NCBI GenBank assembly: GCA_021018995.1
Contig: CM037590.1
Span: 82,554,097-82,618,096, forward strand
DNA: 64,000 nucleotides
Reading direction: 5' to 3'
Origin: Chloranthus sessilifolius
Lineage: Eukaryota > Streptophyta > Magnoliopsida > Chloranthales > Chloranthaceae
Shown here: positions 2,436 through 62,409 of the stretch, one piece after another
Layout of the letters: the number at the start of each line of letters is the position of its first letter
How positions within the stretch are numbered: position 1 is the first letter of the stretch
The notes under the pieces: generated by a model
The model's database searches: none
What the model was told of the DNA's origin: nothing
Seen by the model: the letters and a program-made list of their open reading frames with translations, nothing else
Program-made: the position numbers and the translations under genes

Positions 2436-2649
2436 TGCATTAAATTCTCATACGAGGACTCCATTATCCATATATACGCTGATACGCCCCTCTAGGAGAT
2501 GGACACTGATTATGCGGCAAGTATTCAGACAACCCATGATTCCATATTGAACACGAGCCATATTCAAAAGACTCGAATCTCCGATGAGGCAACCATTGCG
2601 GAGTCCATCCCCCTACCCCTCCTAGTTCTCCCCCAAAACGTCAACAAAA

Positions 2650-6120: not shown

Positions 6121-6600
6121 ATGGACCTATTATATGCAGATTTCTCCTATGAAGACTTACTCTTGATTCATAATGAAGAGCTCGATAAGACCTCATGGAC
6201 CCTTTATTTTGATGGTGCTCTAAATCATAAAGGAAAAGGCATCGGGATAGTCCTCCTAAGCCCGAAAGTGGTTGTCATACCTAAGGCTTTTCAACTAGAC
6301 TTTCTTGTCACTAACAATGTCGCGGAATACGAAGCTTTCATAGCTGGACTATGAGCTACACTACAATTAGGCATTAAACAGTTGAAAGCCATCAGTGATT
6401 CCAAGCTCGTAATCTCACAAGTCATAGGAGAATGGAAAACTAAGGAAAGGACACTAATGGCATATCTAAAAACTGCTCAATATTTGATAAAAAAATTTGA
6501 AAGAATCTCTTTCACGCACATCCCTAGATTAGAAAACAAGCTCGCAGACTCCCTTGCCACATTAGCCTCGGTCATCCAAATACCCATCAGATAAAATACC
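6121..6600 (+). pseudogene. pol: E1 second (Tat-type) RNase H
   Basis: A second RNase H follows the first. TSWTLYFDGALNHKGKGIGIVL (about 6190-6256) carries the DGA strand, NVAEYEAFIAGL the Glu helix (about 6315-6350) and AISDSKLVISQV the third acidic strand (about 6388-6425). A dual RNase H, the second resembling archaeal/plant type I enzymes, is a published hallmark of the Tat clade. This supports lineage assignment more strongly than the RT does. Confidence 0.85.
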
Positions 6601-6799
6601 AAGACCTTTTTCATCAAAAAGCTGATCGTACCCGCCCACAAGATAGCATGGACTGTTAAGAGAGAATTGTTAATCCTCCCCACGAGCACAGGACCAAATG
6701 AAGTAATCACTCCGGAAAATCACGTCAGGGCAAAAACCGAATTCACTATATTCATATTTGAAAAATCACCAACCGATGACGGATCGCCATGGTATTTCA

Positions 6800-8064
6800 A
6801 CATCTAGAACTTCTTAAAGCATCAACACATCCCTCCATATGGCATAAAGATCGAACGGAAGACTATAAGGAACCGATGCGCCCGATTCTACATACTCAGC
6901 GAAATATTATACAAAGAAGCCTTCCCCAAAGGAGTACTTCTATGATGTGTCACAACCACCGAAGGATAATACATCATCTGAGAAGCACACACCACTGCCT
7001 GCAGTGCCCACACCGGTAGACAGAGACTCACTGATCAAATTATACAATATGGCTACTTCTGGCCGAAAATGATAAGAGGTTGCCACCTCTATGTCCAATT
7101 CTGCAAATAATGCCAAGAACACGCTGCACTCATCAAAGCTCCATCAGTTGTATTGAACATTATGACCTCGCCGTAGCCGTCTTTTATATGGGCCTTCGAT
7201 GTCATCAGACCTTTCACAGAGACAGTTGGGAATAATCACAAGCACGCATTCATACTTACGACAATCGAATATTACACCACATGGGTAGAAGCTGAATTTT
7301 ACCCCAGAATCACCGCTTTAACACTCGTGAGGTTTATCGTTCGAAATATCATCACCAGGTTTAGAATACCCAGAATGTTTGTCATTGACAACGGACCACA
7401 GTTTATCATAGAGAAGATGAAGAAATTATACAAGAAGTTTGGCATCCATCTACGCCACTCATCACCGTTCTATCCCCAAGGAAATGGACAAGTGGAGGCT
7501 ACAAATAAGACGTTGATTCAAATTTTGAAACGCACAGTAGAAACGAGTAATGGAGCCGACTGTCTTGAACGACTACTAGAAGCACTCTGGGCCTATAGGA
7601 CCTTTACTCGTACGACCACTGGCCAAACTCCCTACCTCTTCACCTACGGGATGGAGGTAGTCCTATCATATGAGATACAAGTACCATCCTTATGAATTTA
7701 ACTCGATGATGAACTATCCTTAGACAAGAGGAGAATTGCCCTACTCACACAGTTAGAGCAGCTCGATGAGACATGTCTAAGAGCAGCTGATCATGCACAT
7801 ATATATTAGAGGAGAGTGGCCAGAACCTATGACAAGAAAGTCCTCGAACGAACCTTTAATATTGGAGAATTAGTCTTAAAGAAAATCATGCCTTTTAAGC
7901 ACGCCCATCCGAAAGGAAAATTGAAATTGAACTGGAAAGGCACTTATGTTATAACGGCCATATACCCTGGGAATGCATACAAATTGGTGAACCAAGATGG
8001 GGAAGAACTCCCTAGCCCTTGGAACGCCATATACCTTAGAAAATACTTATCCTTAGCGCTGGGA
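6800..8064 (+). pseudogene. pol: E1 integrase
   Basis: Integrase joins cDNA to host DNA in the nucleus. The His-Cys zinc-binding half lies about 6960-7130 (CHLYVQFCK...CQ-like), and the DDE core about 7190-7620. Visible core landmarks are FVIDNGPQFI near 7380 and HSSPFYPQGNGQVEATNK near 7458-7510. GLWAYR-like LWAYRTFTRTTTGQTPY follows. The C-terminal GPY-like fold is GTYVITAIYPGNAYKLVNQDG about 7930-8000. The end, PWNAIYLRKY, matches E2. Several breaks. Confidence 0.88.
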
Positions 8065-8386
8065 CCCCTTCACTGGTCGTACGTCATAAATTCTCATGAT
8101 ATCCTTAAGACCTCCAATTTATTGCCCACTTTCTTATTTGGACAATCTGATCAAAGGACTAGTGACCTACCTAACCACTTTCAAAAACATAAGTAACGCC
8201 CAATCCTCATTTCCCTTCCCCCGCCATTGGAGGAGACATTAAAGCGAAAAAAAAATGAAGATGCTAGGTTCAATCAAAACTCATTATTCTCGCGCTAGCA
8301 GGATGCTTTCAAAAATACATATATCAAATTTTTTTTGAGTGAGAGCATTACGATGAATGAACAAGTCAATGAGCTTAGGGAAGTAT

Positions 8387-8476
8387 AAGCAGGCCGTGAG
8401 GGCGTCTCTGATAACTTTACTAGAGATGTATAAGCAAGCTGTGAGGGCATCCCTGATGTCCCCATACTACTAAATA
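8387..8476 (+). repeat. Two 45-bp imperfect tandem units
   Basis: Units begin AAGCAGGCCGTGAGGGCGTC at 8387 and AAGCAAGCTGTGAGGGCATC at 8432, a spacing of 45 bp. The same pair, more diverged, lies in E2 at about 21606-21690, so it predates both copies. Confidence 0.7.
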
Positions 8477-9486
8477 TCATTGTAAGGTGGCGGGAGGAGG
8501 ACAAACTCTTGCTAACCATAGAATGTGAGATTTTGATGGCACCAAAATATGATGAAGAACTCAATCATGGCACCCCGTGTCCCTCTGAGAAAAAGATTAT
8601 TACTCATCCCTTTTGAAAAGTATTGGATACAAACTATTCCCCACATCATTGAGCCTTACCCCCTCTTCTACTTTTTATTTTATTTTTGGACCATAAATCA
8701 GAAGCCTTACAGGATACTCCTAGGAATGGAGCCGAAAACCGATGAATGATGACTGATGCAATTACTTACTATACCTACTGTACTTCTCCCTAATAACCAT
8801 GGGATAGGATGACCACCACCCTAAGATAGACCCCTATATACAACTGACCTAATCAAAATGACCTCCCCTAGTTCGATGACAGTACTGAAAAACTTTTCTT
8901 CAAAACTAACTCACAAAATACCCCTGACTGCTTATAGACCCAAAGTACTAATCTAAAACCTAGAAAAGATCCATTGCATCTACACACTGGGGCATTTTCT
9001 TTTATCAGAAGGAGAATCGCATTAGAAGCGCCGACTCGTTCGCAAAGAAGATGAGGAATAACGAAGTTGCCATCTGAAAAAAGCTACCGAAGATACCATA
9101 CTGCCAATCCTACCACGCTCCTTCACTGGGGCATTTTTATTTTTATTTGTATCTTACTTATTTGCTTTGCCTATTGCATTATCTTTATTTCAAAACAAAA
9201 AAAGAGAGAAAAAAGAGACCACATATCCATCTTTTACTATCAGACCCCGGTCTGAGACACGCGCCCCCCTTGACAACTAGCAAGGGGGATAATAAAATTA
9301 TTGGTAGCATTACCTTTACATGTGCAGATACAAAACAGCCTTCAACCATCACCAGGCCAGCTCAGGAAGCATCCAAATCTCGATGACGGTTGACGACGCT
9401 AAAAAAAAGAGAGAAGAGAAGCAAAAGGAAAATGCAAGAGGTAATCAAAAGAAAAGGAGTCAATCAGGTACCTCTAAACCAAAAAT

Positions 9487-9488
<2 letters not shown>

Positions 9489-9519
<31 letters not shown>
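9489..9519. repeat. (TA)n microsatellite
   Basis: About fifteen uninterrupted TA units. E2 has only a short TATATATA at the homologous place (about 22708), so the run expanded in E1 after the copies separated. A (CA)n tract lies nearby at about 9600-9616. Confidence 0.95.
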
Positions 9520-9520
<1 letters not shown>

Positions 9521-9639
9521 AAAGTTTCTTTTCTTTTTACATCTATCACCGGGGCATACCCCCACTATATACAATGTGCACACGTAATGGAAAAAAAAAA
9601 CACGCACACACACACCCCTACTCCCTATGCTGACGCTAA

Positions 9640-9879
9640 GAGGGCCGATCACCGCTGTCCCCAGTGTTATCAGGTCGAAGGTTCGTAGACTGGTCATCTG
9701 AAAACACAATCCCGACACCCGGAGTCCGTGGAACCTCTAGATGATGAGGCCTCACTACAGAACCCCCTTCGCTTGTCTGACTAACGAACCGCCTCAATCG
9801 AGAACGAGGAGGATACCCCGTAAGAATCTCACGAATGACAGAATCCCCACGAGCATCATCTTTAGCATGATCACGTGAC
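9640..9879 (-). pseudogene. E1 antisense gene, terminal block
   Basis: Read on the minus strand, this encodes a peptide whose end (LEVPRTPGVGIVFSDDQS) matches the E2 antisense frame at 22831-23115 (LEVSRTPDVGIVFLDDQS). Upstream of that shared part the two copies are unrelated in sequence. The block is cut at 9879 by E2. The rest of the same antisense gene appears at 30820-32322 on the far side of E2. Confidence 0.6.
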
Positions 9880-12281
9880 TGTAGAAACCCTCATTTCGCC
9901 CTCTCGGAGTACACGAATTTCTTTGGTTAGCCCTTGACCTTTTTAACCCTTGACCCGGGACCATGCAGCAGTATATCGCTGAACACAAGTTGAAATAATA
10001 GCTCTGTGGCTCAGATCCCAACGTAGGGAGGCTATACACTAAGCAATAGTATATAGTCGAGATGCAGACTGAAATAATAGTCTTGCATTCCATTCTTGAG
10101 ACCATACCTGGACAATCCTGAATTAAGCGCCCGAAAACTCGTGCGTAATTCGATCACGCGCAGAACCACAAGCGCGCGATCAGTCCCCTTTCAGACCAAA
10201 CTTCCTTTCACAGACCGTTTCGAGACTCAATTACGTGGCTAGAACTGGATGCACGATCGGATTGTGCGCTACACTATCAGCGCGCAATTGGCCTACGCTC
10301 GACCTAGTCTCCTATCCTTGACTCCTATGTTTCCTCGATTAAGCGCTTCAGGTAACATGCTTAATTAGATTATGCATGTCCCATCACGAGTGCAATTAGC
10401 CCTAATTTTGTTAGGACTAAGAAACTTGCTGAGTAATTCAGCCGGTCGCTCACTGAGTCGGTGACCGACTCAAAGCGCTAGAAAACTAGCACGTAATTCA
10501 ATTAAACGCTCAAAAACAGGCACGCAATTAAAGGAAAACCTATAAAAACTCTTTTTCTCGAAGAGAGAGAGAGGCTGTGAAATTTAGAGAGGAGAGACCG
10601 TAAATTCCAAAATCAGAGAGTTCCGAGAGCGAACCCCCTAGACCAAATTAGCCATGATTTTGAGATTCAAACTTCGAGATTTCTCTCCGCAGCCCCGACC
10701 CTAGGTAAGAATTTAATTTTATTTTAGACTTAGGATTTTCCCTTAGTTTAATTAATCAATTCTATTTCTAATTTTTAGATCGTAGCACCCTCTTCGGACC
10801 AAAATTCTCTATATTCGGTTCTAGTTCTCTGTTTTTAGAACTGATCCTTAATCTAGCGATTCGATATACCTACCTTATGCTTTGATTCTACTCTAAAATC
10901 TTAATTTACATTCCTATCATTAATTTCTGGTTCTGACTCTCAGAGTTCAGAACCAGTCCTTAATCATATGACCCGATTTTTCTGATTTCGGACCCGAATT
11001 CAGTCCTAAATTTTTAATTTATAATTTAATTCTATATTTTCATAACGTCAAAAATCCAAAAAAAATATAAATTTCAGTTCATAACTTTAGTTTTTCAATC
11101 TAATTTCTTATTATAATTTTGAATTCAATTCTAAAATTCTCCCTTTCATTATTTAACTGTCGATCTATCTTTTATCTCAGCCGATTTGCCCACGAGAGCT
11201 TACGGAGGATACTCGGGAACGAGGCCAATCCTCCTTAGCATAGCGGGCCCAACCCCCCTTTTTTTAAAGATTGTTTAGGGTTAACTAGTTAATTATAGAT
11301 AGTTTTTTCTATTTCAATATAATTGGCTAATTGCATCAAATAGGCATTCATATCATTATTTGCTTTGATTCAATTTAGTCTTCTAGTTCAGTCAATTTAT
11401 TATCTCAACCAGAATTTAGGAAAGTTAATTTCGTTTATTATTAGTTAGATTTTTACCATAATTGATCTGTAGATTATGATTCTAAAAAAAAAGAGTTAAT
11501 TTTATTGCCTCGATCATTTATTTCTATTTTAGTAAATTGATTTATTGCTTCAATCAGAGTCGTAGTAAAAATTAGTCTTTATTTTCTTCAAATTAGAATG
11601 CTAGTAAGATTACCTTAAGTGCTTTAGTTGTAATTGTCATATAATTAATACATCTACTTATCTAGAATTGTAATAAAATTAGCGTACCTGCTTTATCTAG
11701 AATTGCTATATAATTAGACTCTTTTATTTAATTGGAATGTTATTAGAACTGATACACATGCAATCCTAGTACCAGTAGGAGACTGGAACTGATTGGACTT
11801 TTAGTAGTACCAAGACTTTGACATTAATTGGACTCCTAATGATATCGAGAAACTGAAAATGATTGGACTCCTAATAGCATCAGGACACTAAAATAACCCA
11901 TCATAATAAACTCACCTAATCATAATCAACAATAAAAAAGGAGAATCTAAATTGACCATAACCGCAATAAGGGAAACTAAAAAGAAAGCTGAAACTATCT
12001 AATTAAAAGAGAACACTGCGACTGACGTTCGCAGGCGGACTATTTAGTATAGAAATAACCCACACCCACTTAAACACGTGATCATTGACGTGTTGCAGCG
12101 TCGATAAATATCTGTAACTGGCGATCGTAAATCAACTAGGAATCATCCTACGAAATTCCTTCTATTATTATTTATCCCCACCTTATCACATACACCGCAT
12201 CGTTAGAGTCCAACAGGACAGAATTGGAAACCACTTATTCAATGGGAACCGAGAGGAACCTAGAAAAAGCACGCACCAACA
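9880..12281 (+). repeat. E2 5' LTR
   Basis: It runs from TGTAGAAACC to CACCAACA. The first 650 bp (U3) are rich in GCGCGYAATT/GATTAAGCGC motifs and contain a palindrome (10455-10471) upstream of a TATA box at 10541. Downstream is a GA-rich leader and a splice-donor-like CTAG|GTAAGAATTT at 10705. The distal half (about 11280-11900) is AT-rich and made of degenerate repeats around ATTGGACTCCTAATNATA and TAGAATTGYAATAAAATTAG. Confidence 0.95.
10541..10548 (+). promoter_or_regulatory. LTR TATA box (E2 5' LTR)
   Basis: CCTATAAAAACTC sits just downstream of the motif array and just upstream of a GAGAGAGAGG leader. It is kept at the same place in the other family LTRs: 29069 (E2 3'), 32993 (E3) and 61711-61717 reversed (E7). 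It is very likely the core promoter of the element. Confidence 0.75.
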
Positions 12282-17560: not shown

Positions 17561-19300
17561 TACCAGAAGAGATACTCCACGACTTCAAGAGAAGAGTCAA
17601 TAGCCTTGACCTTCACTTTACCAAAGATCTTTCGATCATAAATTGCATTGATGAAGAGTTGCCTTGCACAAAATTAAATCCCCAGCCTAGTAATTTCGCA
17701 GTATATGAGCTCATCGAGGATGAAGGAGGAACACTAGGCCCTAATGAGACTCAGGACTTTCGGCAGGTTATTAAATGTTTTGACGAACAGACCCAGGCTA
17801 CCGCCGAACCCACGGAGGAAATCAATTTTGGCACTGACAAGAAGCCCAAGAAACTGTTGATTAGTGCGACGCTCAATCCTAGAGAATGTCAGCAGATTGT
17901 ACAAGTCCTACAGGAACATCTCGACTCTTTCGCATGGTCCTACGAGGACATGCCTGGTTTAGACCCAAGTCCAGTAGAACATTGTCTTGTCTTAGAACCC
18001 GATGCGAAACCTTTTAAGCAAAAACTCCACAGGATGCACCCCCAAATAGCCCTTCAAGTCAAAGAGGAAGTTGACAAGTTACACAAAGCTAAATTCATCC
18101 GAGTTGTCCTCTACCCCAAGTGGGTCGCCAACATAGTATCTGTCGCTAAGAAAGACGGCAGGGTATGGGTTTGCATTGACTTTCGAAACCTCAATCAGGC
18201 ATGCCCAAAAGATGACTTCCCACTCCCACATATTGACACTCTTGTTGACAACACTGTTGGACATGAGATGCTATCCTTCATGGACGGTTTCTCTGGATAT
18301 AATCAGATCAAGTTAGCAGAGTCTGACCAAGAGAAGACTTCCTTCACCACATCATGGGAAACTTACTGCTACGTCGTCATGCCTTTTAGGCTCAAGAATG
18401 CAGGAGCCACATATCAATGCATCATGATGGCTATTTTTCGCGACATGATACATAAGTGTGCAAAAGTTTATGTCAATGACATATTAGTAAAGTCACAAAC
18501 GCGAGTAGGACACGCTGAAGCCCTCCGGCTAGTGCTACAGAGAGCTAAGAAATATCAACTAAAAATTAATCCTAAGAAATGTATTTTCGGAGTCACCTCT
18601 GAAAAATTACTTGGTTCTATAGTTAGCAATAGAGGGATTGAAATCGACCGTGTGAAAGTGAGAGCCATTTTAGAGATGCCACCTCCCAGCAATATCAAGA
18701 AATTACAAGGTTTGATAGGAAGATTGCAATTCATTAGGAGATTTATCTCTCAGCATTCAGACCGATGCGATCCTTTCTACAAACCACTTAAAGGAGGGAC
18801 CGAGTACAGATGGGATGACCAATGCCAGCAAGCTTTCGATAGCATTAAAAAATACCTCCTTAACCCACCAATACTATCGCCACTAGTTCCCGAAAGACCC
18901 CTAATCCTATACCTTTCGGCAAATGATAAAGTGATGGGAGTAATCTTAGGACAATATGAAGAAAATGGCAAGAGAGAGAAGGCCATTTACTACCTTAGTA
19001 GAACGATGGTCGAATACGAATGAAAGTACACCCCTATGGAGAAGACATGCCTCACATTGGTATGGGCTTCAACTAACTTACGACATTACTTCGGAGCACA
19101 TAAGATACTAGTACTAGCCCGAATGGATCCTCTAAAGTACATATTCGAAAAGCCCACCACATACGGGAAGATCGCCCGCTGGCATATGCTATTACAAGAG
19201 TTTGATATCACTTACGTTACCCAGAAGTCGATCAAGGGGCAAGCCATTGCAGATTACCTCACAGATCTTCCACTCCCGAATGATGAACCCATACACACGA
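17561..19300 (+). pseudogene. pol: E2 reverse transcriptase and first RNase H
   Basis: The longest open stretch of the window is here, 454 codons at 17659-19023. RT landmarks in order are CQQIVQVLQEHLDSFAWSYEDMPGL (17885-17960), the VCIDFRNLNQACPKDDFPLP block (about 18167-18230), MDGFSGYNQIK (18280-18312), the catalytic-strand region DILVKS (near 18478-18496), and KINPKKCIFGV (18562-18596). The RT connection IRRFISQHSDRCDPFY leads into the first RNase H, with LILYLSANDKVMGVILGQ (18900-18955) and YLSRTMVEYE (about 18990-19020). Better preserved than E1. Confidence 0.93.
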
Positions 19301-22830: not shown

Positions 22831-23244
22831 CTAATCCCTACGCTGCCGCTGAGGAGGATGAGCACCACTATCGTCGGTATCGTCACCCCAGAGGTCCGTA
22901 GACTGATCATCTAAAAACACAATCCCGACATCCGGAGTCCTCGAAACCTCTAAACGGCGAGGACCCACCACCAAACCCCCCTCAGCCCCTGGCTGCTCCT
23001 CACCCTGCTCACCCTCAACTCTGTCGCCCTCCTCCTTAGCTACCCTTGGCTTAGCCTCGGGTACCTCCTCCCTGACCACCATCTGGTCACCCTCGGGGAC
23101 TCCCTCCGCGACCATCTCTCTGATATCTGCCTCTATGGTGACAGCTCTAGCCTATGCCCCTGAACTCTCACCTCCATTGCTCATCAACATCCCCTCTAAC
23201 TCAGAAATAGTGAGCTCTGGCCTACCAACACCCTCACCCTCCAT
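22831..23244 (-). pseudogene. E2 antisense accessory frame (short acidic form)
   Basis: A minus-strand frame starts at the ATG at 23242-23244 (MEGEGVGRPELTISELEGML) and ends at 22831 (HPPQRQRRD). It has about one break. The product is acidic and Glu/Gly/Pro-rich, with no membrane segment or known fold. The C-terminal LEVSRTPDVGIVFLDDQS is shared with the E1 antisense block at 9640-9879; the middle is not. A TATA box sits about 170 bp upstream at 23414. Antisense frames between pol and the 3' LTR are known in the Tat/Retand lineage, but their function is unknown. Confidence 0.6.
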
Positions 23245-28399: not shown

Positions 28400-30814
28400 T
28401 ATAGACACCCTCATTTCGCCCTCTCAGAGTACACAAATTTTTTTGGTTAGCCCTTGACCTTTTTAACCCTCGACATGGGACCATGCAGTAGTACATGACT
28501 GAACACAAGCTGAAACAATAGCTCTGTGGATCAGATCCCAACGTAGGAAGGCTATACACTAAGCAATAGTATATAGTCAGGATACAAACTGAAACAATAG
28601 TCCTGCATTCCAATCTTGAGACCATACCCAGACAACCCTGAATTAAGCTCCTGAAAACTCGCATGTAATTCGATTACGCGCAGAACCACAAGCGCGCGAT
28701 CAGTCCCCTTTCAGACCAAACTTTCTTTCACAGACCGTTTCGAGACTTGATTACGTGCCTGGAAGTGGACGCGCGATCGGATTGTGCGCTACACTATCAA
28801 CGCGCAATTGGCCTACGCTCAACCTAGTCTCCTACCCTCGACCCCTACATTTCCTTGATTAAGCGCTTCAGGTAACATGCTTAATTAGACTACGCACAAC
28901 CCATCATGCGTGCAATTAGCCCTAATTTTGTTAGGACTAGGAAACCCGCTGAGTAATTCAGCCGGTCGCTCACTGAGTCGGTGATCGACTCAAAGCGATT
29001 AAGTGCTAGAAAACTGGTGCGTAATTCAATTAAACGCCCAGAGACAAGTGCGTAATTGAAGGAAAACCTATAAAAACTCTTTTTCTTGAAGAGAGAGAGA
29101 GGCTGCAAAATTTAAAGAGGAGAGACCGCAAATTCCAAAACCAGAGAGTTCTGAGAGCGAACCCCCTAGAGAAAATTAGCCATGATTTTGAGATTCGAAC
29201 TTTGAGATTTCTCTCCGCAGCCCCGACCCTAGGTAAGAATTTTATTTTATTTTAGACTTAGGATTTCCCCTTAGTTTAATTAATCAATTCTATTTCTAAT
29301 TTTTAGACCGTAACACCCTCTTTGGACCGAAATTCTCTATATCCGGTTCTAGTTCTCTGCTTCTAGAACCGGTCCTTAATCTGGCGGTCCGATATACCGA
29401 CCTTTTGCTCTGATTCTACTCTAAAATCTTAATTTATAGTCCTATCATTAATTTCTGGTTCTGACTCTCTGAGTTCAGAACCAGTCCTTAATCATACGGC
29501 CTGATTTTTCTGATTTCGAACCCGAATTCAATCCTAAATTTTTAATTTATAATTTAATTCTATATTTTCATATCGTCAAAAATCCAAAAAAAATATAAAT
29601 TTCAGTTCATAACTTTAGTTTCTCAATCTAATTTCTTATTATAATTTCAAATTTAATTCTAAAAATCCCCCTTTTATTATTTAACTATCGACCTATCTTT
29701 TATCTTAGCCATCCGATTTGTCCACAGGAGCTTACGGAGGGTACTCGAAAATGAGGCCAATCCTCCTTAGCATAGCGGGCCCAACCCCCCCTTTTTTTTA
29801 GATTGTTTAGGGTTAACTAGTTAATTATAGGTAGTTTTTTCTATTTCAATATAATTGGCTAATTGCATCAAATAGGCCTTCATATCATTATTTGCCTTGA
29901 TTCAATTCAGTCTTCTAGTTCAGTCAATTTATTATCTCAACCAGAATTTAGGAAAGTTAATTTCGTTTATTATTAGTTAGATTTTTACCATAATTGATCC
30001 GTAGATTATGATTCTAAAAAAAAAGAGTTAATTTTGTTGCCTCGATCATTTATTTCTATTTTAGTAAATTGATTTATTGCTTCAATCAGAGTCGCAGTAA
30101 AAAATTAGTCTTTATTTTCTTCAAATTAGAATGCTAGTAAGATTACTTTAAGTGCTTTAGTTGTAATTGTCATACAATTAATACATCTGCTTATCTAGAA
30201 TTGCAATAAAATTAGTGTACCTGCTTTATCAAGAATTGCGATATAATTGGACTCTTTTATTTAATTGGAATATTATTGGAACTGATACACATGCACTCCT
30301 AGTACCAGTAGAAGACTGGAACTGATTGGACTCTTAGTAGTACCAGGACTTTGATATTAATTGGACTCCTAATGATACCGAGAAACTGAAAATGATTGGA
30401 CTCCTGATAGCATCAGGACACTAAAATAACCCATCATAATAAGCTCACCTAATCATAATCAACAATAAAAAAGGAGAATCTAAATAAACCATAACTGCAA
30501 CAAGGGAAACAAAAAAGAAAGCTGAAACTATCTAATTAAAAGAGAACACTGCTGCTGACGTTCACAGGCGGACGATTCAGTATAGAAGTAACCCACACCC
30601 GCTTAAACGCGTGATCATTGACATGTTACAGCGTCGATAAATATCTGCAGTTGGCGATCGCAAATCAACTAGGAATCATCCTAGAAAATTCCTCCTATTA
30701 TTATTTATCCCCACCTTATCACATACATTGCATCGCTAGGGTCCAACAGGACAGAATTGGAAGCCACTTATTCAACAGGAACCGAGAGGAACCCAAAAAA
30801 AGCGCACACTAACA
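28400..30814 (+). repeat. E2 3' LTR
   Basis: It begins TATAGACACC, aligned to the TGTAGAAACC of the 5' LTR, and ends CACTAACA. Layout is as in the 5' LTR: motif array, palindrome at 28975-28991, TATA at 29069, GA-rich leader, splice-donor-like GTAAGAATTT near 29235, AT-rich distal half. Most differences from the 5' LTR that I sampled are C/T or G/A. Confidence 0.95.
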
Positions 30815-30819
30815 ATGAC

Positions 30820-32322
30820 GTGTGACGAGATTGCCTGGCCGAGGAAACCCGTAGCCCTCAACTCCTATCCATCAAGCTGACCCGGTAACTGCGCACCTTG
30901 CGCTCCTCGTTAAGCGAAGCTGCGGCGATCCGAGACACACTGTCTACTGCCCGTGTGTGTCGACGTGTTGCCTCTAACACCTCGGTCTGAGTCCTCTGTG
31001 TGACCATCATCTCAACTACTAGGTCCTCGCGACTCTGTGTCTCCTCGAGGATCCACCTCGCCTCAGGAGTGGCATGCCCTCGTGCTGCCTCTAGGTGAGC
31101 CTCAAGCTGACGAACTTACGTAACCAGACCAAGTCAAAGAAAACCAATATATATATATATATATATGAACATAGAAAAAACTTTGAAAAGGTAAGAATCA
31201 TACTAGATCCATCCTCTCCCCCAGAAGTCGCTCAACCGTCACAGCGGTCACTGGATCAGCAGGAGGCATAGAGGGAACATCAAACGTAGGCAGCTGCAAT
31301 GATAATAAACAAATACCTCAGATAACACTACAATGACAAATAAACTATGAACATAATAACTAAAACATACCTGAGAAGGAATAAGAGCAGACTCCTGAGG
31401 GGGAGCCTCAGGAGCGGAGTCCGGAACAGCTTGCAGAAAAAAAACTTAAACAAACCAACCTAAGATATGTCAGAATAAAATGAAATAACCTAAACTGAAT
31501 TACACCAAACTAGAAACTATACCTGACTCTCGGGGCGTAGAGAGGCAGCAGTCGCCTCCCTCGTCTGGAGATCCTCGACAACCTGACGCTGAAATACCGC
31601 ATGATATTAGTAAGCTATCAAGAGAGCAAAATAATAAACTCAACAAACTACTACAATCATACAAACAAGTCAAAAGATTAAATGGAACTCACCCAGTGCT
31701 CCAGCTCGGCCCGAAGCTAAGCCATCGCTGGATCCTCTCGACTGGAAGGGGCAACCAAAGAAGGATCAAATGCCTGAGCAGCGGGCCCCGCGGTAGAAAG
31801 CTCTGCCCTCTGCAGACATTAACAAATGCACCAGTATTAATAAGAATCCACAAACTACCAATGAGATTAATAAATCTAACAAAGACACTTACCAATCAGT
31901 CAATCTCAGATCCCAGACTAGCCTCTACCTCCCGGCTAGCCTGCTGCTGATCGCGTAACAACTCGATCATCACCGCATGACTGGCAACCTCGGTCTCCCT
32001 CTCAGACTGGTTAAAATAAAATGAGAAATAACAACTATATCAGAACGACTGAGAGACTAAGTCAACATAATACATAAATAATTAAACCAATAAACTAACT
32101 CACCAGGAGTCGTCGAGTCTCCGCTAATTGAGCCCCTATCTCATCCTCCGCTCCCCTAGCCTGAGCAACCGAGGTGGCTAGAGAGCGCAACATCTCCTCA
32201 TCAGGACGAGGAGCACACCCCATCTGCTCCATCGCCCTATGAAGGGCATCTAATGCCCCTCGCACACTCGCTGTGAGATGGCCCTGCTCTAATGCGGCCA
32301 GTCTCTCCCTCAATGCTGACAC
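30820..32322 (-). pseudogene. E1 antisense gene in intron-separated blocks
   Basis: The minus strand shows open blocks bounded by plant-like GT and AG at about 32322-32104, 32006-31893, 31809-31693, 31588-31523, 31429-31371 and 31293-31204, plus a last one from about 31104 to 30830. The five full spacers up to 31294 are 76-104 bp, AT-rich, typical of plant introns; the final one is about 100 bp. The first block is a heptad-like helix (LRERLAALEQ...LDALHRAMEQM). The last is long, Arg/Glu/Gln-rich and helical (ARWILEETQSREDLVVEMM). This continues E1 after E2, and the block at 9640-9879 would be its terminal part. It resembles neither gag nor pol; accessory antisense frames are known in this lineage. 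It is interrupted by E2 and by E3 and cannot be complete. Confidence 0.55.
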
Positions 32323-34343
32323 TGTAGACACCCTCATTTCGCCCTCTTAGAGTACATGAATTCGTTTGGTCAGCCCTTGACCTTTTTAACCCTCGACATG
32401 GGACCATACAACTGTATATGACTGAACACAAGATGAAATAATAGCTTTATGGCTCAGATCCTAACGTAGGGAGGCTATATACTAAGCAATAGTATATAGT
32501 CGGAATGCAGACTGAAACAATAGTCCTGCATTCCATTCTTGAGACCATACCCGGACAACCCTGAATTACGCGCCTGAAAACTTGCACGTAATTCGATCAC
32601 GCGCACAACTATAAGTGCATGATCAGTCCCCTTTCAGACCAAACTTCCTTTCACAGACCGTTTTGAGACTCGATTACACACCTGGAAATAGATGCACGAT
32701 CGGATTGAGCACTAAAGTACCAGCGCGCAATTGGCCTACGCCCGACCTAGTCTTACTACCGTTGACCCCTACGTTTCCTCGATTAAGCACTTCAAGTAAC
32801 ACACTTAATTGGATTACGCACATCCCATCACGTGTGTAATTAGTTCTAATTTTGTTAAGACTAGAAAACCCGCTGAGTAATTCAGCCGATCACTCACTGA
32901 GTTGGTGCCCGACTCAAAGTGATTAAGTGCTAGAAAACTGGTGCGTAATTCAATTAAATGCTGGAAAATAGGCACGTAATTGAAGGAAAACCTATAAAAG
33001 TTTTTTTTCTCGAAGAGAGAGAAGAGGCTGGCAATTTTGAGAGAGAGAACGAAACTTTTTTGGGACTTCGAAACCAGAAAACTCTGAGGACAAGCCCATA
33101 GAGCAAATTAGTCATGATGTCGAGATTCAAACCCCCGAATCTTCGATGATTCCTCTCCACAGCCCTAACCGTAGGTAAGAATTTAATTTTGCTTTAGACT
33201 TAGGATTTTCCCTTAGTTTAATTAATCAAATCTATTTCTAATTTTTAGACCGTAGCACCTTCGTCGGACCGAAATTATCTATATCCGGTTCTAGTTCTCT
33301 GTTTCTAGAATCGGTCCTTAATCTGGCGGTCCGATATACCGACCTTATGCTCTGATTCTACTTTAAAATCTTAATCTACAGTCCTATCATTAATTTCTAG
33401 TTCTGACTCTTAGAGTTTAGAACCAGTTCTTAATCATATGACTTAATTTTTCTGATTTCGGACCCGAATTCAGTTCTAGAATTTTAATCTATAATTTAAT
33501 TCTATATTTTCATATCATCAAAAATCCAAAAAAGAATATAAATTTCAGTTCATAACTTTAGGTTCTCAATCTAATTTCTTATTATAATTTCGAATTCAAT
33601 TCTAAAAATCCCACTTTTATTATTTAACTATCCACCTATCTTTTATCTCAGCCATCTGATTTGCCCACGGGAGCTTACGGAGGGTACTTGAGAACGAGGC
33701 CAATCCTCCTTAGTATAGCAGGCCCAACCCCCCTTTTTAAAGGTTGTTTAGGGTTAATTAGTTAGTTGTAGTTAGTTTTTCTATTTCAATATAATTAGCT
33801 AATTGCATCAAATAGGACTTCATATCATTATTTGCTTTGATTCAATTTAATCTTCTAGTTCAGTCAATTTATTATCTCAATCAGAATTTAGGAAAGTTAA
33901 TTCGTTTATTATTAGTTAGATTTTTACCATAATTGATCCGTAGATTACAATCCTAAAAAAAGAGTTAATTTTGTTGCCTCGATCATTTATTTTTATTTTA
34001 GCAAATTGATTTATTGCTTAAATCAAAAATTCAAAAAAAGATTAGTCTTTGTTTTCTTCAAATTAGAATGCTAGTAAGATTACCTTAAGTACTTTAGTTA
34101 TGATTGCCATTCAATTGATACATCTGCTTATCTAGAATTATAATAAAATTAGCATACTTGCTCTATCTAGAATTGCGATATAATTGGACTCTTTTATTTA
34201 ATTGGAATATTATTAGAATTGATACACATGCATTCCTAGTATCAGTAGGAGACTGAAACTGATTGGACTCTTAGTAGTACCAGGACTTTGATATTAATTG
34301 AACTCCTAATGATATCGAGAAACTAAAAATGATTGGACTCCTG
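32323..34343 (+). repeat. E3: family LTR cut off on its right
   Basis: It starts TGTAGACACC and follows the E2 LTRs for 2.02 kb, including the palindrome (32899-32915), TATA (32993) and splice-donor-like GTAAGAATTT (about 33175). It ends at 34343, about 400 bp short of the usual end, where Athila sequence begins. It is preceded by antisense-gene sequence and not by a polypurine tract. So it looks like the 5' LTR of a third copy inserted into the E1 antisense gene, but E1's own LTR by recombination cannot be ruled out. Confidence 0.85.
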
Positions 34344-35000
34344 ATGCATGGAGAAACCACCCAAATTTGAGGTGGAGACAAGATAATTACCCTCAACCCC
34401 AACAGCAACAGTTGGCAGCTCCATATAAACCCTAGCACTAGTTTAACCAAGGATGCCCACCAAGATATAATTTTTAGTTGCCTGCCCCACAACCCAACCA
34501 GTTGGTCTTGCCCCCACAGTAGCCTAGATTCTCTTCCTTTAAAGAGCAAATGCTTGCATCCATGCAGAATTTGGGGAACTTAGTCCAAATTGTGAACTCT
34601 CATGGGCAAAGCATTAAGATAATAGAGGACCAGCTGGGTCAAATTTATAATGTTTTGAACAAAAGAGAGGAGGATAGACTGCCTAGTCAACCATTGGCCA
34701 ACCCCAAAGGGCAGTACATGATTGGAGAAGCATCCTCTACCCATGAGGATACTAATGCAATTCCTACCCTGAGGAGTGGCAGAGTGGTTGATAATTTAAT
34801 AGGTAGGGCAACTGGGGAGGTCATAGAAGTGAAATTGAAAGGAATGTGAGTGATGAAGAACCAAAGAAGTCATCCCCTGCTATGGATCAACAAGGAAAAA
34901 ATAAAGGGGCTGATGTTGAGCCCTAATAGAAATCAATAAATGAAGAAAAAAGAAAAAAACAAAAATCTGAACATGATGTTGCTAGGCATGCAGCTGTGGC
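34344..35000 (+). pseudogene. gag: Athila gag, distal part
   Basis: Bases encode RNHPNLRW-type residues followed by a Gln/Pro-rich stretch, then EQMLASMQNLGNLVQIVNSH with a predicted coiled coil, LPSQPLANPKGQYMIGEASS and TLRSGRVVDN. The LPSQP...NPK...LRSG series is the usual C-terminal signature of Athila gag. The capsid start is not present. A spacer (about 34850-35030) leads to protease. Confidence 0.88.
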
Positions 35001-35029
35001 ACCAACAGTCCCACAACTTCCATTTCCTC

Positions 35030-35640
35030 ATGCATTACCTGGCCCTTCTCCTTTTGATAAGGGGAATGCTCAGATGAAAGAAATGATGGAGACTTTCAAG
35101 CAGGTCAAGATCAATTTGCCCTTGCTTGATGCCATAAAATAGGTCCCTGCCTATGCCAAGTTCTTGAAGGATCTTTGCACACAGAAAAGGAAAGCAAGGG
35201 TGCAGTTGTCCAAAAAGGCTTTTGCTATTAAGCATGTTGAGTCAGTTCTGGTCATTGCCACAACTGAGAAATTACAAGACCCAGGGGTACCTACTATCCC
35301 CTGCATAATTGGAAATCACACCATTGGTAAAGCCCTCTTAGATTTAGGGGCTAGTGTGAACCCGCTCCCATACTCTGTGTATGAGGATCTAGGTTTTGGG
35401 GAGCTGAAATCTATATCAGTTGTGCTCTAACTAGTTGATAGGTATGAGAGGAGACCTATGGGTGTGGTGGAGGATGTTTTGGTGGGGGTGGACAAGTTCT
35501 ACTATCCTGCTGATTTTCTTGTTTTGGACATGGAACCTTGCAAAAGGAAAGTCCTAATTCCTATCATCCTTGGAAGGCTATTCTTGGCCACTGCTAATCT
35601 TTGCATATATGCATGTCAGGGGTGATGGAGGTGACCTTTG
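35030..35640 (+). pseudogene. pol: Athila protease
   Basis: After PFPHALPGPSPFDKGNAQ the segment KQVKINLPLLDAI.. precedes the retropepsin. IPCIIGNHTIGKALLDLGAS (about 35300-35355) is the active-site region, and NPLPYSVYEDLGFGELK follows, the standard Athila wording. A flap-end ILGR-like ILGRLFLATA lies about 35565-35590. Confidence 0.85.
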
Positions 35641-35799
35641 GGAACATGAAGGCCCAATTGAATGTCTACAAGGCTGCTAGGCACCCTCAGATGGACATTG
35701 AGGACTGTTGTGCAATAGATGTACTAGATGGCGTAGTGGAAGAGGAATTATCTAATCTGCTGGATTGGGATAATGTTGTTGATGACTTAGAAAATATTT

Positions 35800-37524
35800 A
35801 GAGTTTGGTTGAAAAAGAGGCCCAAGTTTTCATGATAGAAGATAGCACAAAAATAGAGTCTTCTGTGGGCCAATGTAGCACTCCAGCTAGAAACCCTCAT
35901 TGCTGTCCCTTCCTTAAACCACTAAGGAACCTTTGTTGCCTTCAATTGAAAGTCTCCCTAAGCTAGAGCTAAAACAACTCCCAGCCACATTAAAATATGC
36001 CTTATTGGGGCAGAACAATAAGCTTTCAGTGATTATCTCCTCCTCTCTCACCAGTGAGCAAGAGGAGGAATTATTGAGTGTTCTCAAGAAGCAAAAGAAA
36101 GCAATGGGGTGGACAATAGTTGATCTTGGAGGCATTGATTCCTTAGTTTCCATGCACAGAATTCATCTGGATGAGGGTACAAAACCCTTAAGGGAGATAC
36201 AGAGGAAGCTTAATCCTCACATGCAGGAAGTGGTGCTTAAGGAGATAGTGAAACTATTGGAAGCAGGGGTAATTTATCCCATTTCAGATTCAGAATGGGT
36301 GTCACCTATCCAGGTGGTACCTACAAAGTCAGGCATAACAGCTATCACTATGGATTCTGAGGAGTTAATGCTAGCTAGGGAGACCACTGGTTGAAGAGTT
36401 TGCATCGATTATAGAAAACTCAACTCCAAAACTAGGAAAGACCACTTCCCCCTCCCTTTCATTGACCAAATTCTAGATAAGCTGACTGGAAAGATATTTT
36501 ATTACTTTCTTGATGGATACTTAAGGTATAACCAAACTCCTGTTTATCCTCAAGATCAAGAGAAAACTACTTTCACATGTCCCTTTGGCACCTTTGCTTA
36601 AAGAAGGATGCCTTTTAGATTGTGCAATGCCCCAACCATATTTCAGAGGTGCATGTATGCAATCTTTTTTGATATGATTGATAAATTCTTGGAAATCTTC
36701 ATGGATGATTTCTCAGTTTATGGGGATAGCTTTAGCCAGTGCTTGAGTCACCTTGACCTGGATTTACAAAGATGTGAGGAGGCCAATTTAGTCCTAAGCT
36801 GGGAAAAGAGTCACTTTATGGTGACACAAGGAATTGTATTAGGCCATGAGGTCTCTCACAAAGGAATAGAGGTTCACAAGGCTAAAGTGGACTTGATTTC
36901 ACACCTGCCCCCACCCAGGACTGGATTCTATAGGAGGTTCATTAAGGACATCAGCAAAATTTCAAAGCCATTTTTCCACCTACTTTGTCAAGATGTGTCA
37001 TTTGACTTCTCTGCTGAGTGCCTTCAGGCCTTTGAGGTCTTAAAAAAGTGCCTTACCATTGCTCCTGTAATCCATGCCCCAGATTACTCACTCCCCTTTG
37101 AGCTGATGTGTGATGCATCAAACTTGGCCAAAGGTGTTGTCTTAGGACAGAGGAAAGATAAGTTGCCTGCAGTGATCTATTATGCCAACAAATCACTAGC
37201 TGAAGCTCAGCTGAACTACACCACTATTGAGAAGGATCTGCTAGCTGTTGTGTTTGCTGTGGACAAGTTTAGACCCTACTTGCATGGGTCTAAAATTGTT
37301 ATTTTCATTGATCACTCAGCCCCGAAATACCTATTGGCTAAGAAGAATGCCAAGCCAAGGTTGATCAGATGGATCCTCCTACTACAGGAGTTTAATCTTG
37401 AGATCAAGGATAAAAAGGGAGTTGAGAATGTGGTGGCTGACCACCTCTCTAGGATTATTTTAGAAGAATGTGCAACAGCACCTGTTAATGAGTTTTTCCA
37501 TGATGAGCAACTATTTGATGTATA
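35800..37524 (+). pseudogene. pol: Athila RT and RNase H
   Basis: An N-terminal stretch (35933-36160) contains LKYALLGQNNKLSVIISSSL and VLKKQKKAMGWTIVDLGGI. RT then shows EAGVIYPISDSEWVSPIQVV (about 36255-36325), a RVCIDYRKLNS block near 36398, DHFPLPFIDQ (about 36440), and the catalytic [11 protein letters not shown] (about 36698-36730). RNase H follows: [20 protein letters not shown] (about 37098-37155), [20 protein letters not shown] (37225-37280) and [11 protein letters not shown] (about 37425-37455). The frame 36608-37525 (305 codons) is the best preserved. Confidence 0.92.
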
Positions 37525-38824
37525 GTCTAGCATGCCCTGGTTTGCACACATTGTCAATTTTCTTGCTGTTGGAAGGATCCCCCCTCATTGGTCCAAGATG
37601 GACAAAGACCTGTTTTTCTCTCAGGTCAAATATTTTTTATGGGAGGATCTATACTTATTTAAGCACTGTGCAGACCAGGTTATTAGGAGATGTGTACCTG
37701 AAAGTGAGTTCCACAACATTCTTTCTACGTGTCATGAGCAAGCCTGTGGAGGTCACTTCAGTGGCAAAAAGACTACAACAAAAGTGCTGTAATGTGGTTT
37801 CTATTGGCCTTCTTTGTTCAGAGATGTATTTATACATTGCAAAGCTTGTGAGAGATGTCAAAGGTTAGGAGGCATTTCCAAGAAAAATTCTATGCCATTG
37901 TAGCCCATCCTTGTGATAGAACTTTTTGATATCTGGGACATTGATTTTATGGGTCCCTTTCCTCCATCTATGGGTTTTAACTTCATACTTGTGACAGTGG
38001 ACTATGTGTCCAAATGGGTGGAAGCCATTGCCACAAGGACCAATGATCACACAGTTGTCCTTAAATTTTTGAAGGATAATATCTTCTCCAGATTTGGCAC
38101 ACAAAGCTATCATTAGTGATGGGGGGAGTCATTTCTGTAACAGGCCTTTTGAGAACCTCCTCAAAAAATATTCTGTTACACACAGAATTGCAACTCCCTA
38201 CCACCCACAAACCAGTGGGCAAGTTGAAATTTCCAATAGGGAGATTAAGCATATCTTGGAGAAGACTGTGAGGACTCATAGGAAGGATTGGGCACAAAAG
38301 TTGAATGATGGTTTGTGGGCTTATAGGACTGCCTATAAAACCCCTATTGGCATGTCCCCATTTAGGTTAGCTTATGGCAAGGCCTGCCACCTACCAGTAG
38401 AGTTAGAGCATAGAGCCTATTGGGCTATCAAATCACTAAATTTTGATCTAACTACTACTGGTTCTCACAAGAAATTGCAGCTAGCAGAGCTTGATGAGCT
38501 AAGGCTGGAAGCCTATTCAAATGCCAGAATATACAAGGAGAAATCAAAGGCATTCTTTGACAAGAAGCTAATGAGAAGGGTCTTCAATGCTGGTACTAAG
38601 GTTTGACTTTTCAACTCCAAACTAAGATTTTTTCCAGGGAAGTTAAAATCCAGATGGGATGGACCTTACACTGTCATTCATGCCTCCCCATCTGGAGCTG
38701 TGGAGATCTTTTATCCTATGTCTAGGAAGATCATGAAAGTGAATGGGAAAAGGCTAAAAATTTGTATAGACAATTCAGTGGAGCCTCCTTTGACCATTCA
38801 CCTATATGAACCTCCCACTGCTTA
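37525..38824 (+). pseudogene. pol: Athila integrase
   Basis: Zinc-binding part with CHEQACGGHFSGKKTTTKVL (about 37730-37790) and CKACERCQRLGG (about 37838-37870). The core has [14 protein letters not shown] (about 37938-37980), [13 protein letters not shown] (about 38000-38037), and [20 protein letters not shown] (about 38192-38250), ending with the [18 protein letters not shown] helix. C-terminal SRWDGPYTVIHASPSGAVEI (about 38650-38710) is the GPY-like module. The pol end is YEPPTA at 38824. Confidence 0.92.
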
Positions 38825-47639: not shown

Positions 47640-49030
47640 ATCAGCAAAACCTTAGAGAGAAACCGACAATCTCCCACTCCCTGGTAGCCCAAAGTGAAGT
47701 CCAACCGACTGTCGAGAAAGTGACCCCCATATCCAAGGAGTCAGAGCAGTTAGACAAAATACAAAAGCAGTTGTTGAAAATGGGTGGTGTTGAAATCCAC
47801 GCCACGGACTTCACAGATTTATGTTTGTTCGCTGAGGTCCCCTTGCCTCCCAAATTTAAAATGTCAGCTTTTGATAAGTACAACGGCACCAACAATCCTA
47901 TTGCACACCTGAAGTTCTATTGTGGGGACATGTGCCAGTCAGACTTTTTTAAAAGACCTTTTTAGTAGTCTCTCATCCCCTCCATACTGGCACATGTCCC
48001 CAAAATAGAACTTTAGGTGTGCAATAGGATTGTTGGTGCCATTGTACTTGCCAAAAGATGGCATTTTAAATTTGGAAGGCAAGGGGACCTCAGGGAATAA
48101 ACATAAATCTGTGAAGTCCGTGGCGTGGAAGTCAGACTTGGCCTGTCTGAGGTTCGAATGAGACCTTCAATGACTATTTGGGGTGATGGAGAGCACTAGC
48201 AGCTCAGGTCAGAAATAGGAAACTTGACGATGAACATATTGAAATGATCTCTAAAAATACTCTACCAGTGATCTCAGACTTTTTGGTGTACCAGCAACAG
48301 TCCAGGTTTATTGATCTGGTGATGCATGCCAATCACTGTGAAGATGCCATTAGGGGGGGTCGCTGAACAAAAATATACTAAGTGGAGCCAGTGGGGTTAG
48401 AAGGTTTTCGAAATAAAGGAATGAGAAGAGAACAGGGGCCGATATCCAGAACATTGCAAATACCAAGTCCAATAATAATATAACCTCATTCCAATTCTAA
48501 GCAACCAGTCAGCCCTAGTCAGAACTGAATAGATGCAGAGAGTAGGGAACGATCAAGGAATAAAGATGACTCCAGAGCAAAGGAGAGCTTGTTACGACCG
48601 TGTGTTTACGCCCCTAGGGCAATCACTAAGTGTACTTTTACCTTTATTAATAGAAAAGGGATTAGTTACTATTCGTCAACTGCAACCTCCTCCTCACCTG
48701 ATCCCAAAAAATTATGACCCTAATACTCACTGTAATTTTTATCAGAGTTCGGGGCACCCGACTGATCGCTGCTTCCCATTGAAGCACACAATCCAAGATT
48801 TGATCGATGCTAGAAAAATCATTCCACCAGTACCTTCTCAAGCAAATCAGCACACAAATATTCATCAAGTGCCATTACCCCCACATTCTATTGGAGGAGC
48901 AGGTTCTAGACCCACCATCAGAATGATAGAATGTGAGGAGGAGTTCGAGTTTGACCCATCAGACTACATCAATGATCGGGAGAGCTGTGCAACACCATTG
49001 CGAGAAACGGTGAAGAAAGGAATATTGGGG
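47640..49030 (+). pseudogene. gag: E5 gag
   Basis: Frame 47720-47965 ends in MSAFDKYNGTNNPIAHLKFY, the gag entry motif also seen in E2 (FTKYNGTGNSNHH). After the inverted duplication, about 48160-48360 again resembles capsid (SVRFVFVFLC-like words are absent, but DDEHIEMISKNTLPVISDFL fits). The zinc-knuckle-like HCNFYQSSGHPTDRCFPLKH (about 48730-48790) is clear. The Pro-rich spacer lies at 49030-49550. Confidence 0.8.
47796..48129. repeat. Inverted duplication of gag sequence, 144-nt arms
   Basis: Arm 1 is 47796-47939 (TCCACGCCACGG to TGCCAGT), arm 2 is 47986-48129 (ACTGGCACATGTCCC to CCGTGGCGTGGA), with a 46-nt loop. The arms differ at only about ten to fifteen sites by eye. A transcript across it would fold into a long hairpin with gag sequence in its stem. 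Confidence 0.92.
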
Positions 49031-51240: not shown

Positions 51241-52800
51241 GTTATGAGTCTGGACGAGGATATCTCTTTGGAGGAGCTCCCAAATGAGCTCCTTGACCGA
51301 TTTGCCAAATTTGAGCATGGCCCTACCCCCATTGTCGAGGAAACTGAGGACGTTAATCTAAGGACTGAGAAGATTCCCCGAATTACCAAAATTGGAACAT
51401 CGCTGTCTCCCGAAGAAATAAAAAGCATGGTTGACTTCCTTCAGTCATACCAATCATTTTTGCCTGATCATACGAGGACATGCCTGGTCTAGACACCGAT
51501 TTGGTCGAGCATGAGTTGTCTCTCTACCCTGATATAAAGCCAGTTAAGCAAAAGCTGAGACATCTTTGACCCGAGTGGATGTTGAAATCAAAGACGAGGT
51601 CATCAAGCAGTATGACACGGGGTTTCTCATGGTGTCCAAATACCCGTAGTGGCTAACCAATATCATGCCTATACCAAAGAAGGATGGAAAGGTCTGCATG
51701 TGTATCGATTTTCATAATTTGAACAGGGTGAGCCCGAAGGACAATTTCCCATTACCGCACATCGACATCTTGGTCGATAATAATGCTAAGCACGGGATGC
51801 TTTGTTTTATGGAAAGATTCTCAGGATAGAATCAGATTAGGATGGCAGAGGCAGATCAAGAGAAGACTGCATTCATCACTCCTTGGGGAACCTTTTGCGA
51901 CAGAGTCATGCCATTTTGGCTGACGAATGTTGCCGTAACATACCAGAGAGCTATGACCGCACTGTTTCATGACATGATGCATCGAGAAATTGAAGTATAT
52001 GTCGATGATATGATAGCCAAGTCACCAGAGCGAAGCGATCATCTGGAAAACCTTTAGAAGCTGTTCGAGAGGTTGAGAAAGTATCGATTATGTCTGAATC
52101 CACAGAAGTGTGCATTCGGTGCTATGTTCGAAAAACTGTTAAGATTCATCGTCAGCAGGAGAGGGATAGAGGTCGACCTAGTCAAAGTCAAAGCTATCAC
52201 AGAAATGCCACCACCATCTACCGAGAAAGAAGTTAGAGGGTTCTTGAGTAGAATACAATATATCAGTTGGTTCATTACACAACTAACTCGATTCATTACA
52301 CAGCTAACTCTAATCTGCACGTCGATCTTTAAGCTACTTCAGAAGAACTTACCCATTGAATGGAATGACGATTTTCAGGCAACATTCGATAAAATCAAAA
52401 GCTACGTCTTTAATCCACCTGTGTTGGTACCACCCAAGCCAGGGAGACCACTCTAAATGTATGTCTCCACGACGGAAGTCTTGATAGGATGTGTCTTAGG
52501 GCAGCACGATAAGATGGGAAGAAGGGAACATGCCATCTACTATCTGAGCAAGAAATTTACTGATTATGAGACGCGCTATTCTCATCTGGAGAAAGCATGC
52601 CTGGCTCTTGTTTGGGCTACTCAAAGGCTCCGCCATTACTTGCTATCTCAAGCCGTTCTACTTTTGGCCCGGATGGACCCTTTAAAATACCTATTTGAGA
52701 AGTCGACTCTCACTGGGTGGACTGTTCGATGGCAGCTTTTATTGTCTGAGTTTGACATCACGTACGTTACTCAAAAGTCAATTAAGGGGCGCCGATCATC
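51241..52800 (+). pseudogene. pol: E5 RT and first RNase H
   Basis: IGTSLSPEEIKSMVDFLQSY (about 51390-51450) opens RT, then IPKKDGKVCMCIDFHNLNR-type residues (about 51670-51730), QIRMAEADQEKTAFITPWGT (51835-51890) and the catalytic VYVDDMIAKS (about 51990-52025). RNase H 1 runs from about 52450, with YVSTTEVLIGCVLGQHDKMG (52457-52520), YLSKKFTDYE and CLALVWATQRLRHY. Several breaks. Confidence 0.9.
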
Positions 52801-59300: not shown

Positions 59301-59893
59301 CGGTAACAGATATCCGTAGTTTCCTTGGTCTAGCTGGGTACTATGGACGTTTTGTGGAAGGATTTTTAAAAATTTTAGGACCGCTTATGAGACTCACAAG
59401 GAAGGATGCGAGAATTGAGTGGACTGAAGCTGTGAGAAGAGTTTCCAAGAACTCAAGAAGAGACTCACTTCAGCTCCAGTGCTAGCAATTCCTTCAGGCA
59501 GTGGAGGGTTTACAGTATATAATAATGCTTCTCATAATGGTTTAGGCTGTGTGCTCAACCAACACAAGAAAGTGATTACTTATGGGTCGAGGCAGCTGAA
59601 ACATCACGAGAAGAACTACTCGATGCATGACGTAGAACTAGCAGCGGTCATATTTGCATTGAAAATATGGAGACATTATTTATATGGTGAGACCTTTGGG
59701 ATATTCACCGACTAAAAGAGCCTCAGGTACCTATTTACACAGAAGGAATTAAATATGAGGCAGTGAAGGTGGATAGAGTTTCTCAAGGATTATGACTACT
59801 CCATACAATATCACCTAGGCAAGGCTAATGTTGTAGCAGATGCCTTGAGTCGTAAGAGTTTGGCTCAGTTAGCTAGTCTTGTCATGGGGATAC
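59301..59893 (+). pseudogene. pol: Tekay RNase H
   Basis: LGLAGYYGRFVEGF (about 59323-59370) leads to RNase [21 protein letters not shown] (59510-59570), [20 protein letters not shown] (about 59590-59645), and [12 protein letters not shown] (about 59838-59875). It is cut at 59893 by E7. Confidence 0.92.
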
Positions 59894-62395: not shown

Positions 62396-62409
62396 GATGC
62401 CCTTCTTTG
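62396..62409 (-). promoter_or_regulatory. E7 polypurine tract
   Basis: AAAGAAGGGCATC on the minus strand abuts the LTR. It is the same position and wording class as in E2. Confidence 0.78.

Follow-up and report, generated by a model that had tools for sequence, protein, structure and literature searches.

An open question about one stretch of the Chloranthus sessilifolius genome is whether a series of open minus-strand blocks represents an intron-rich gene running antisense to a Tat retroelement, as the first-pass annotation had proposed, and what such a gene would be doing there. The window, by which we mean the whole stretch of 64,000 nucleotides analysed here, corresponds to C7:82554097-82618096 of the 2.17-Gb genome. 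We consider it very probable that the blocks stem from an accessory gene which runs antisense in a Tat (Ogre/Retand-type) LTR retrotransposon and of which the back half is preserved here in a decayed state; in its complete form, this gene is located between pol and the 3' LTR.

Based upon self-comparison and element boundaries, the order in the window is the internal region of the older element B, a short piece of the element B gene that extends to 9879, element A, the rest of the element B gene from 30815 to 32322, and a related LTR (Table 1). Element A is flanked by the 5-mers GTGAC and ATGAC, which are alike at four of five positions, and its LTR pair has a Kimura distance of 0.083 (2402 sites). 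The LTR that begins at 32323 is not preceded by a polypurine tract, unlike the 3' LTR of element A, and is for this reason probably a later insertion into the antisense gene. At its truncated end, this LTR stops abruptly in the sequence of another retroelement (34350-38606) with an RT/RNase H at 36608-37525 and a partial integrase at 38094-38603. Also in the window, we noticed a third RT stretch at 51641-52215, which belongs to a further related element and is 65% identical at the DNA level to 18112-18686 of element A, an inverted self-match of 334 bases (85%) at 47796-48129 that corresponds to a large near-perfect hairpin, and an imperfect short tandem duplication at 60466-60918 within the minus-strand LTR. 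The sense coding region of element B contains a G-patch domain (PF01585, 1.2e-5) at 2650-3225, and G-patch is named among the atypical domains of plant Gypsy elements in PMC9289625.

Table 1. Features of the window, ordered by position.
Feature	Position	Strand	Remarks
Element B internal region, carrier of the antisense gene	1-9770	+	protease-like, G-patch, aRH, integrase
aRH of element B	5998-6591	+	RVT_3 match 6355-6591
Integrase of element B	7177-7692	+	rve match
Antisense gene, last exon, second half	9878-9639	-	in-frame C-terminal tail, displaced by element A
Nested Tat element A	9880-30814	+	inside last exon of antisense gene; self-comparison, boundaries
LTRs of element A	9880-12281 and 28400-30814	+	self-comparison
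Antisense gene remnant in element A	22834-23244	-	start exon joined to tail
Exon 7 (last exon, first half)	31115-30816	-	one in-frame stop; acceptor AA
Exon 6	31293-31204	-	
Exon 5	31430-31371	-	acceptor AA in window copy
Exon 4	31588-31523	-	
Exon 3	31809-31693	-	one in-frame stop
Exon 2	32006-31893	-	one in-frame stop
First block (3' part of exon; 5' part cut off by LTR)	32322-32104	-	also tblastn of relative's exon to 32331-32251
LTR of element A family	32323-34349	+	right end truncated at 34349; abuts first block
Fourth element of same LTR family	near 59893-63704	-	

All seven blocks have lengths divisible by three, and the six introns between them are all consistent with phase 0. The spacers are AT-rich as had been claimed, with a GC content of 0.279 in introns versus 0.587 in exons, and this contrast was reached by 3 of 1506 circular shifts. 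The five splice pairs proposed earlier were not the full list, from which a sixth intron at 31203-31116 was absent, and the GT and AG ends, while kept in relatives, required a correction: the acceptor placed at 31430 is one base off (31431). This acceptor of intron 4 (31432-31431) is AG in 21 of 25 relatives and AA in the window copy, and that of intron 6 likewise reads AA in this copy, as against AG in 21 of 26 relatives. Also, the blocks described as open are exons with phase-0 introns, but stops interrupt exons 2, 3, and 7, and the window copy is a pseudogene. Its extent had been given as 30820..32322, whereas these ends turn out to be an insertion point and an LTR junction: the gene is truncated upstream at 32322/32323, and downstream element A lies within the last exon, whose reading frame is taken up again on the far side. 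The missing 5' part of the first block holds the end of a plant mobile domain (PMD) in other copies, while the window itself is without PMD, and a Pfam search of its own exons, the coil included, gave zero matches. Of the helical character ascribed to the blocks, that of exon 7 was reproduced; namely, AlphaFold2, applied to exon 7 only and as a single sequence, predicted one helix over residues 17-84 of the 85 residues modelled, with a mean pLDDT of 92.9.

On the strand of the genomic RNA, the intron ends read CT..AC, or TT..AC for the two mutated acceptors, and the introns would hence escape splicing in the sense direction. The idea that antisense introns survive retrotransposition agrees with these ends and also with the presence of all introns, 69-124 bases in length, in 27 of 27 copies.

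To obtain these copies, 72 residues of exon 7 were used as a query against the same genome, which gave at least 150 scored matches of 3265 candidates. Thirty loci, picked by similarity to a decayed copy, were fetched, and 26 relatives were used after leaving out the window itself (L001) and three partial alignments (L011, L017, and L020). In these relatives, the donor GT was kept in 147 of 156 cases and the acceptor AG in 137 of 154, as compared with 848 of 1312 and 283 of 570, respectively, for the same dinucleotides elsewhere in the introns. Among the 28 splice-site changes in the 27 copies including the window, 19 were AG to AA or GT to AT and four were GT to GC; being mostly transitions, they would fit the decay of methylated DNA. 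Indels in multiples of three were hardly enriched in exons (75 of 492) as compared with introns (82 of 667), providing no support for coding.

In the spliced frame, dN/dS was 0.387 versus 0.666 and 0.967 in the +1 and +2 frames (325 pairs), and it fell from 0.56 in the 30 closest pairs to 0.33 in the 125 most diverged ones, which is the trend to be anticipated for selection that operates during the active life of elements and ceases after insertion. Stop codons numbered 103 of 8116 in frame and 381 of 7958 and 459 of 7946 in the shifted frames, and the site diversity at codon positions 1, 2, and 3 was 0.178, 0.155, and 0.232. Each of the 27 copies has at least two stops in the model, and there is no working copy among them. 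Taken as sequence comparisons, these results argue that the splice sites and the protein were kept by selection in related copies of the antisense gene. With three stops, two broken acceptors and an empty Pfam result for its own exons, the window copy by itself could pass for chance frames in the AT/GC-patchy 3' sequence of a retroelement with no gene at all, but the splice-site conservation, dN/dS, stop counts, and the PMD found upstream in other copies contradict this reading so consistently that we give it almost no credence.

The front half of the gene was found in other copies, of which twenty stretches of 9.3 to 9.4 kb were compared for gene order. On the gene strand, this order is LTR, LTR-adjacent stretch, start exon, PMD, coil, tail, and pol end; the pol end follows the tail in 17 of the 20 stretches, the LTR-adjacent stretch of element A is matched in 15, and an LTR match stands in front in three. 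L050:5454-6113 matched positions 11-181 of the PMD profile, PF10536 (E 3.5e-23), and L033:5455-5949 matched the same profile (E 2.1e-16); the next part of the profile, positions 237-303, was matched by L033:6314-6757 (E 3.3e-5), and the exon there continues into the first block of the window. The PF10536 scores in the relatives were 82.8 and 60.5 bits, the curated cut-off being 34.9. On the PMD side, the splice sites (in L050 coordinates) were kept at donor 6102 in 13 of 14, at acceptor 6195 in 12 of 14, and at acceptor 6455 in 14 of 14, and the start exon has an ATG after an acceptor in 11 of 15 copies. The model of the complete gene, which covers the start exon and then the first PMD exon onward, has phase-0 introns wherever the phase is readable, and its longest exons measured are about 220 codons. 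The complete gene would be composed of the start exon, three PMD exons, six further coil exons, and a tail near the pol end. In comparison of sequences with solved structures, the first PMD exon gave two weak matches (E 0.21 and 0.34).

The antisense gene adjoins the pol end in copies on different chromosomes, which indicates that it is carried by the element. A free-standing host gene into which retroelements were inserted might be considered, since both ends of the interval are abutted by LTRs of one family; the same gene beside the same pol end on different chromosomes and the large number of scored matches, however, are so hard to explain with a host gene that this possibility can practically be set aside. 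Of the two origins offered in the first-pass annotation, a captured host gene or an old accessory gene, the latter is therefore the better reading, given the at least 150 matches, the same place beside pol, and the fall of dN/dS with divergence. Capture would still lie behind the gene, because it is related to host and MULE-borne PMD genes.

Copies without element A, furthermore, show its insertion site in the empty state: the matches to 30815-32322 and 9300-9879 overlap by 3-5 bases in 12 of the 20 copies, an overlap that represents the duplicated target site of element A, and in L045, one uninterrupted exon matches 31133-30816 and then 9878-9801, where the last exon is unsplit. Element A has an antisense region of its own, which was considered as a full relative and rejected; its PMD and coil exons are deleted, and it is a deletion derivative without PMD and coil. 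The join of start exon and tail was spanned by one of 40 scored matches (2797 candidates), namely the window itself, and the deletion thus looks private to this element. The alignment of the A and B gene tails spans 44 codons, in which 9 differences fall on first, 10 on second, and 18 on third positions.

While the search for protein matches in other elements, suggested as a check, succeeded in other copies of the same genome, its counterpart in a protein collection did not: the coil and the tail as queries gave zero matches there at E up to 1 and 10. In a control, a pol query gave thousands of matches in the same collection, showing that plant proteins are present in it. A scan of IMG/VR gave none with a pol pattern, and with an exon 7 pattern 20 stretches matched, of which 0 were confirmed.

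In the three PMD exons, dN/dS was 0.30, 0.31, and 0.27, and the shifted frames gave 0.78-1.07 (105 pairs, 15 copies); given that the ratio in a non-coding control was 0.56-0.69 and hence well below 1, part of the low dN/dS reflects composition. It could be argued that there is indeed a gene but that it works through its RNA; namely, an antisense transcript, spliced or not, would regulate the element via double-stranded RNA, and the protein would matter little now. Antisense transcripts of plant LTR elements and effects of double-stranded RNA are indeed discussed in PMC7264820. An RNA function, however, would not favour codon structure, and since the PMD exons and the coil exons have both been under selection for their amino-acid sequence, we regard this alternative as improbable.

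In terms of classification, the carrier can be assigned to the Ogre/Retand-type Tat LTR retrotransposons, with the gene antisense between pol and the 3' LTR. The criterion given in PMC6317226 for Tat Ogre/Retand is an archaeal-type RNase H between RH and integrase; element A has RT_RNaseH followed by RVT_3, and element B has RVT_3 before rve. The earlier proposal of an intron-rich antisense gene inside a Tat element is supported. PMD in an extra ORF, as in Ogre, was found in the relatives of the window copy. According to PMC11963269, Retand elements have LTRs of 315-1194 bp and internal regions of 7.4-12.9 kb; the nested element A, with its length of 20.9 kb and LTRs of about 2.4 kb, is outside this range.

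For Tat elements, ORFs that run antisense in the region from pol to the 3' LTR are established (PMC7264820 and PMC11963269), and PMC7264820 calls for the study of antisense and spliced transcripts. Among such ORFs, those called aORF-3R (Grande gene23, RIRE2, and Retand; TRP28/PF04195) are like the present gene in their position between pol and the 3' LTR, in running opposite to gag-pol, and in being kept in many copies, and both sources describe them as genes of no known function. The present gene differs in being split into many exons and in having PMD instead of TRP28 in the scanned pieces, where TRP28 was absent among the Pfam matches (part of the pol-LTR frames covered). According to PMC6317226, PMD occurs in 57% of Ogre elements, and these extra ORFs, as compared by domain only, likewise place PF10536 in a Tat-type element; in PMC9289625, PMD ranks first in frequency among the atypical domains of plant Gypsy elements, and its occurrence in MULEs is cited. 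The PMD gene of the present Tat element is antisense and intron-split. An intron in a Tat element is also known from gag-pol of Ogre; there, as described in PMC6317226, it has the sense orientation and undergoes partial splicing, whereas the present ones are antisense. Surveys of extra genes sought uninterrupted ORFs of at least 600 bp (PMC11963269) or at least 250 codons (PMC6317226), and because long uninterrupted ORFs are sought, an antisense gene of short exons is easily overlooked. Antisense ORFs and PMD ORFs of Tat elements are, therefore, already known, and it is the many-exon version that is apparently novel: in the literature searched, which did not extend to the primary reports of Grande gene23, RIRE2, Retand, and PvRetro13 or to the survey of extra ORFs from 2011, we did not find a multi-exon antisense PMD gene under selection described.

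Searching the genome with PF10536 gave 117 scored matches of 20278 candidates, among which the whole domain was in one stop-free frame at three places. The first PMD match ended at profile positions 176-188 in 76 of the 117 and at 235-243 in 23, and we infer that the breaks of the other PMD matches near position 182 are introns. One of the uninterrupted cases, L052 on C2, has PMD 1-347 in one open frame of 549 aa (E 2.8e-98) and looks like a host gene. The host MAIN/MAIL1 family has the same Pfam domain as the antisense gene; MAIN/MAIL (PMD-C) genes are single-copy host genes outside transposons, which the antisense gene is not. In L051 on C13, by comparison, PMD is broken into pieces and has a MULE transposase domain (PF10551, 1.4e-11) next to it. 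When L051 is aligned with the Tat gene, the first PMD exon of both stops at the same residue, with a donor in phase 0, and the next intron end, before V-x-W-x-P-Y, appears by eye to be common to both, L051 being decayed there. While the MULE gene is carried by a DNA transposon and not a retrotransposon, the same position and phase of the PMD intron in this one MULE locus would be most simply read as descent of the Tat and MULE PMD genes from one ancestor that already had introns. The gene would then have arrived as intron-bearing DNA related to the PMD genes of MULE transposons. Its expression would involve transcription from a minus-strand promoter, splicing by the host, and then translation, and its introns would persist since the genomic RNA is the other strand, in which they are not presented as such.

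As for the function, we tentatively suggest, without holding it to be probable, that the PMD protein is multimerised by its helices and acts in the nucleus on the transcription of the element, in the first place by competing with or mimicking MAIN/MAIL1. According to PMC7156037, MAIN and MAIL1 silence transposons with PP7L, and PMC8616336 suggests transposon PMD proteins as counter-silencers. Alternatively, the PMD protein might serve another step, for instance the import of the integration complex into the nucleus or the choice of integration site. A nuclear location of the maize Grande antisense protein and accessory roles are discussed in PMC7264820, which would suit such a step; the best studied PMD proteins, however, act in gene expression and silencing as described in PMC7156037, and we consider this alternative rather unlikely, if by no means negligible.

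In conclusion, the introns of the Tat PMD gene might trace back to a gene common to MULE DNA transposons, and genes with introns might move as DNA from one class of transposons to another and, if antisense, withstand reverse transcription. A giant Tat lineage, with its thousands of copies, would then have long kept an antisense gene rich in introns whose expression is possible only from integrated DNA via the host spliceosome, and the protein of this gene would be a counterpart of the host PMD silencing proteins turned against them. We offer this as a speculative and, taken as a whole, unlikely picture. The PMD identified here allows a direct test of the proposal in PMC8616336 that transposons make their own PMD against silencing, and the intron common to the MULE-side PMD gene serves as a marker of where the gene came from. 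Should such genes be present in many Tat elements, the coding capacity of these elements and their dependence on host splicing would have been underestimated.
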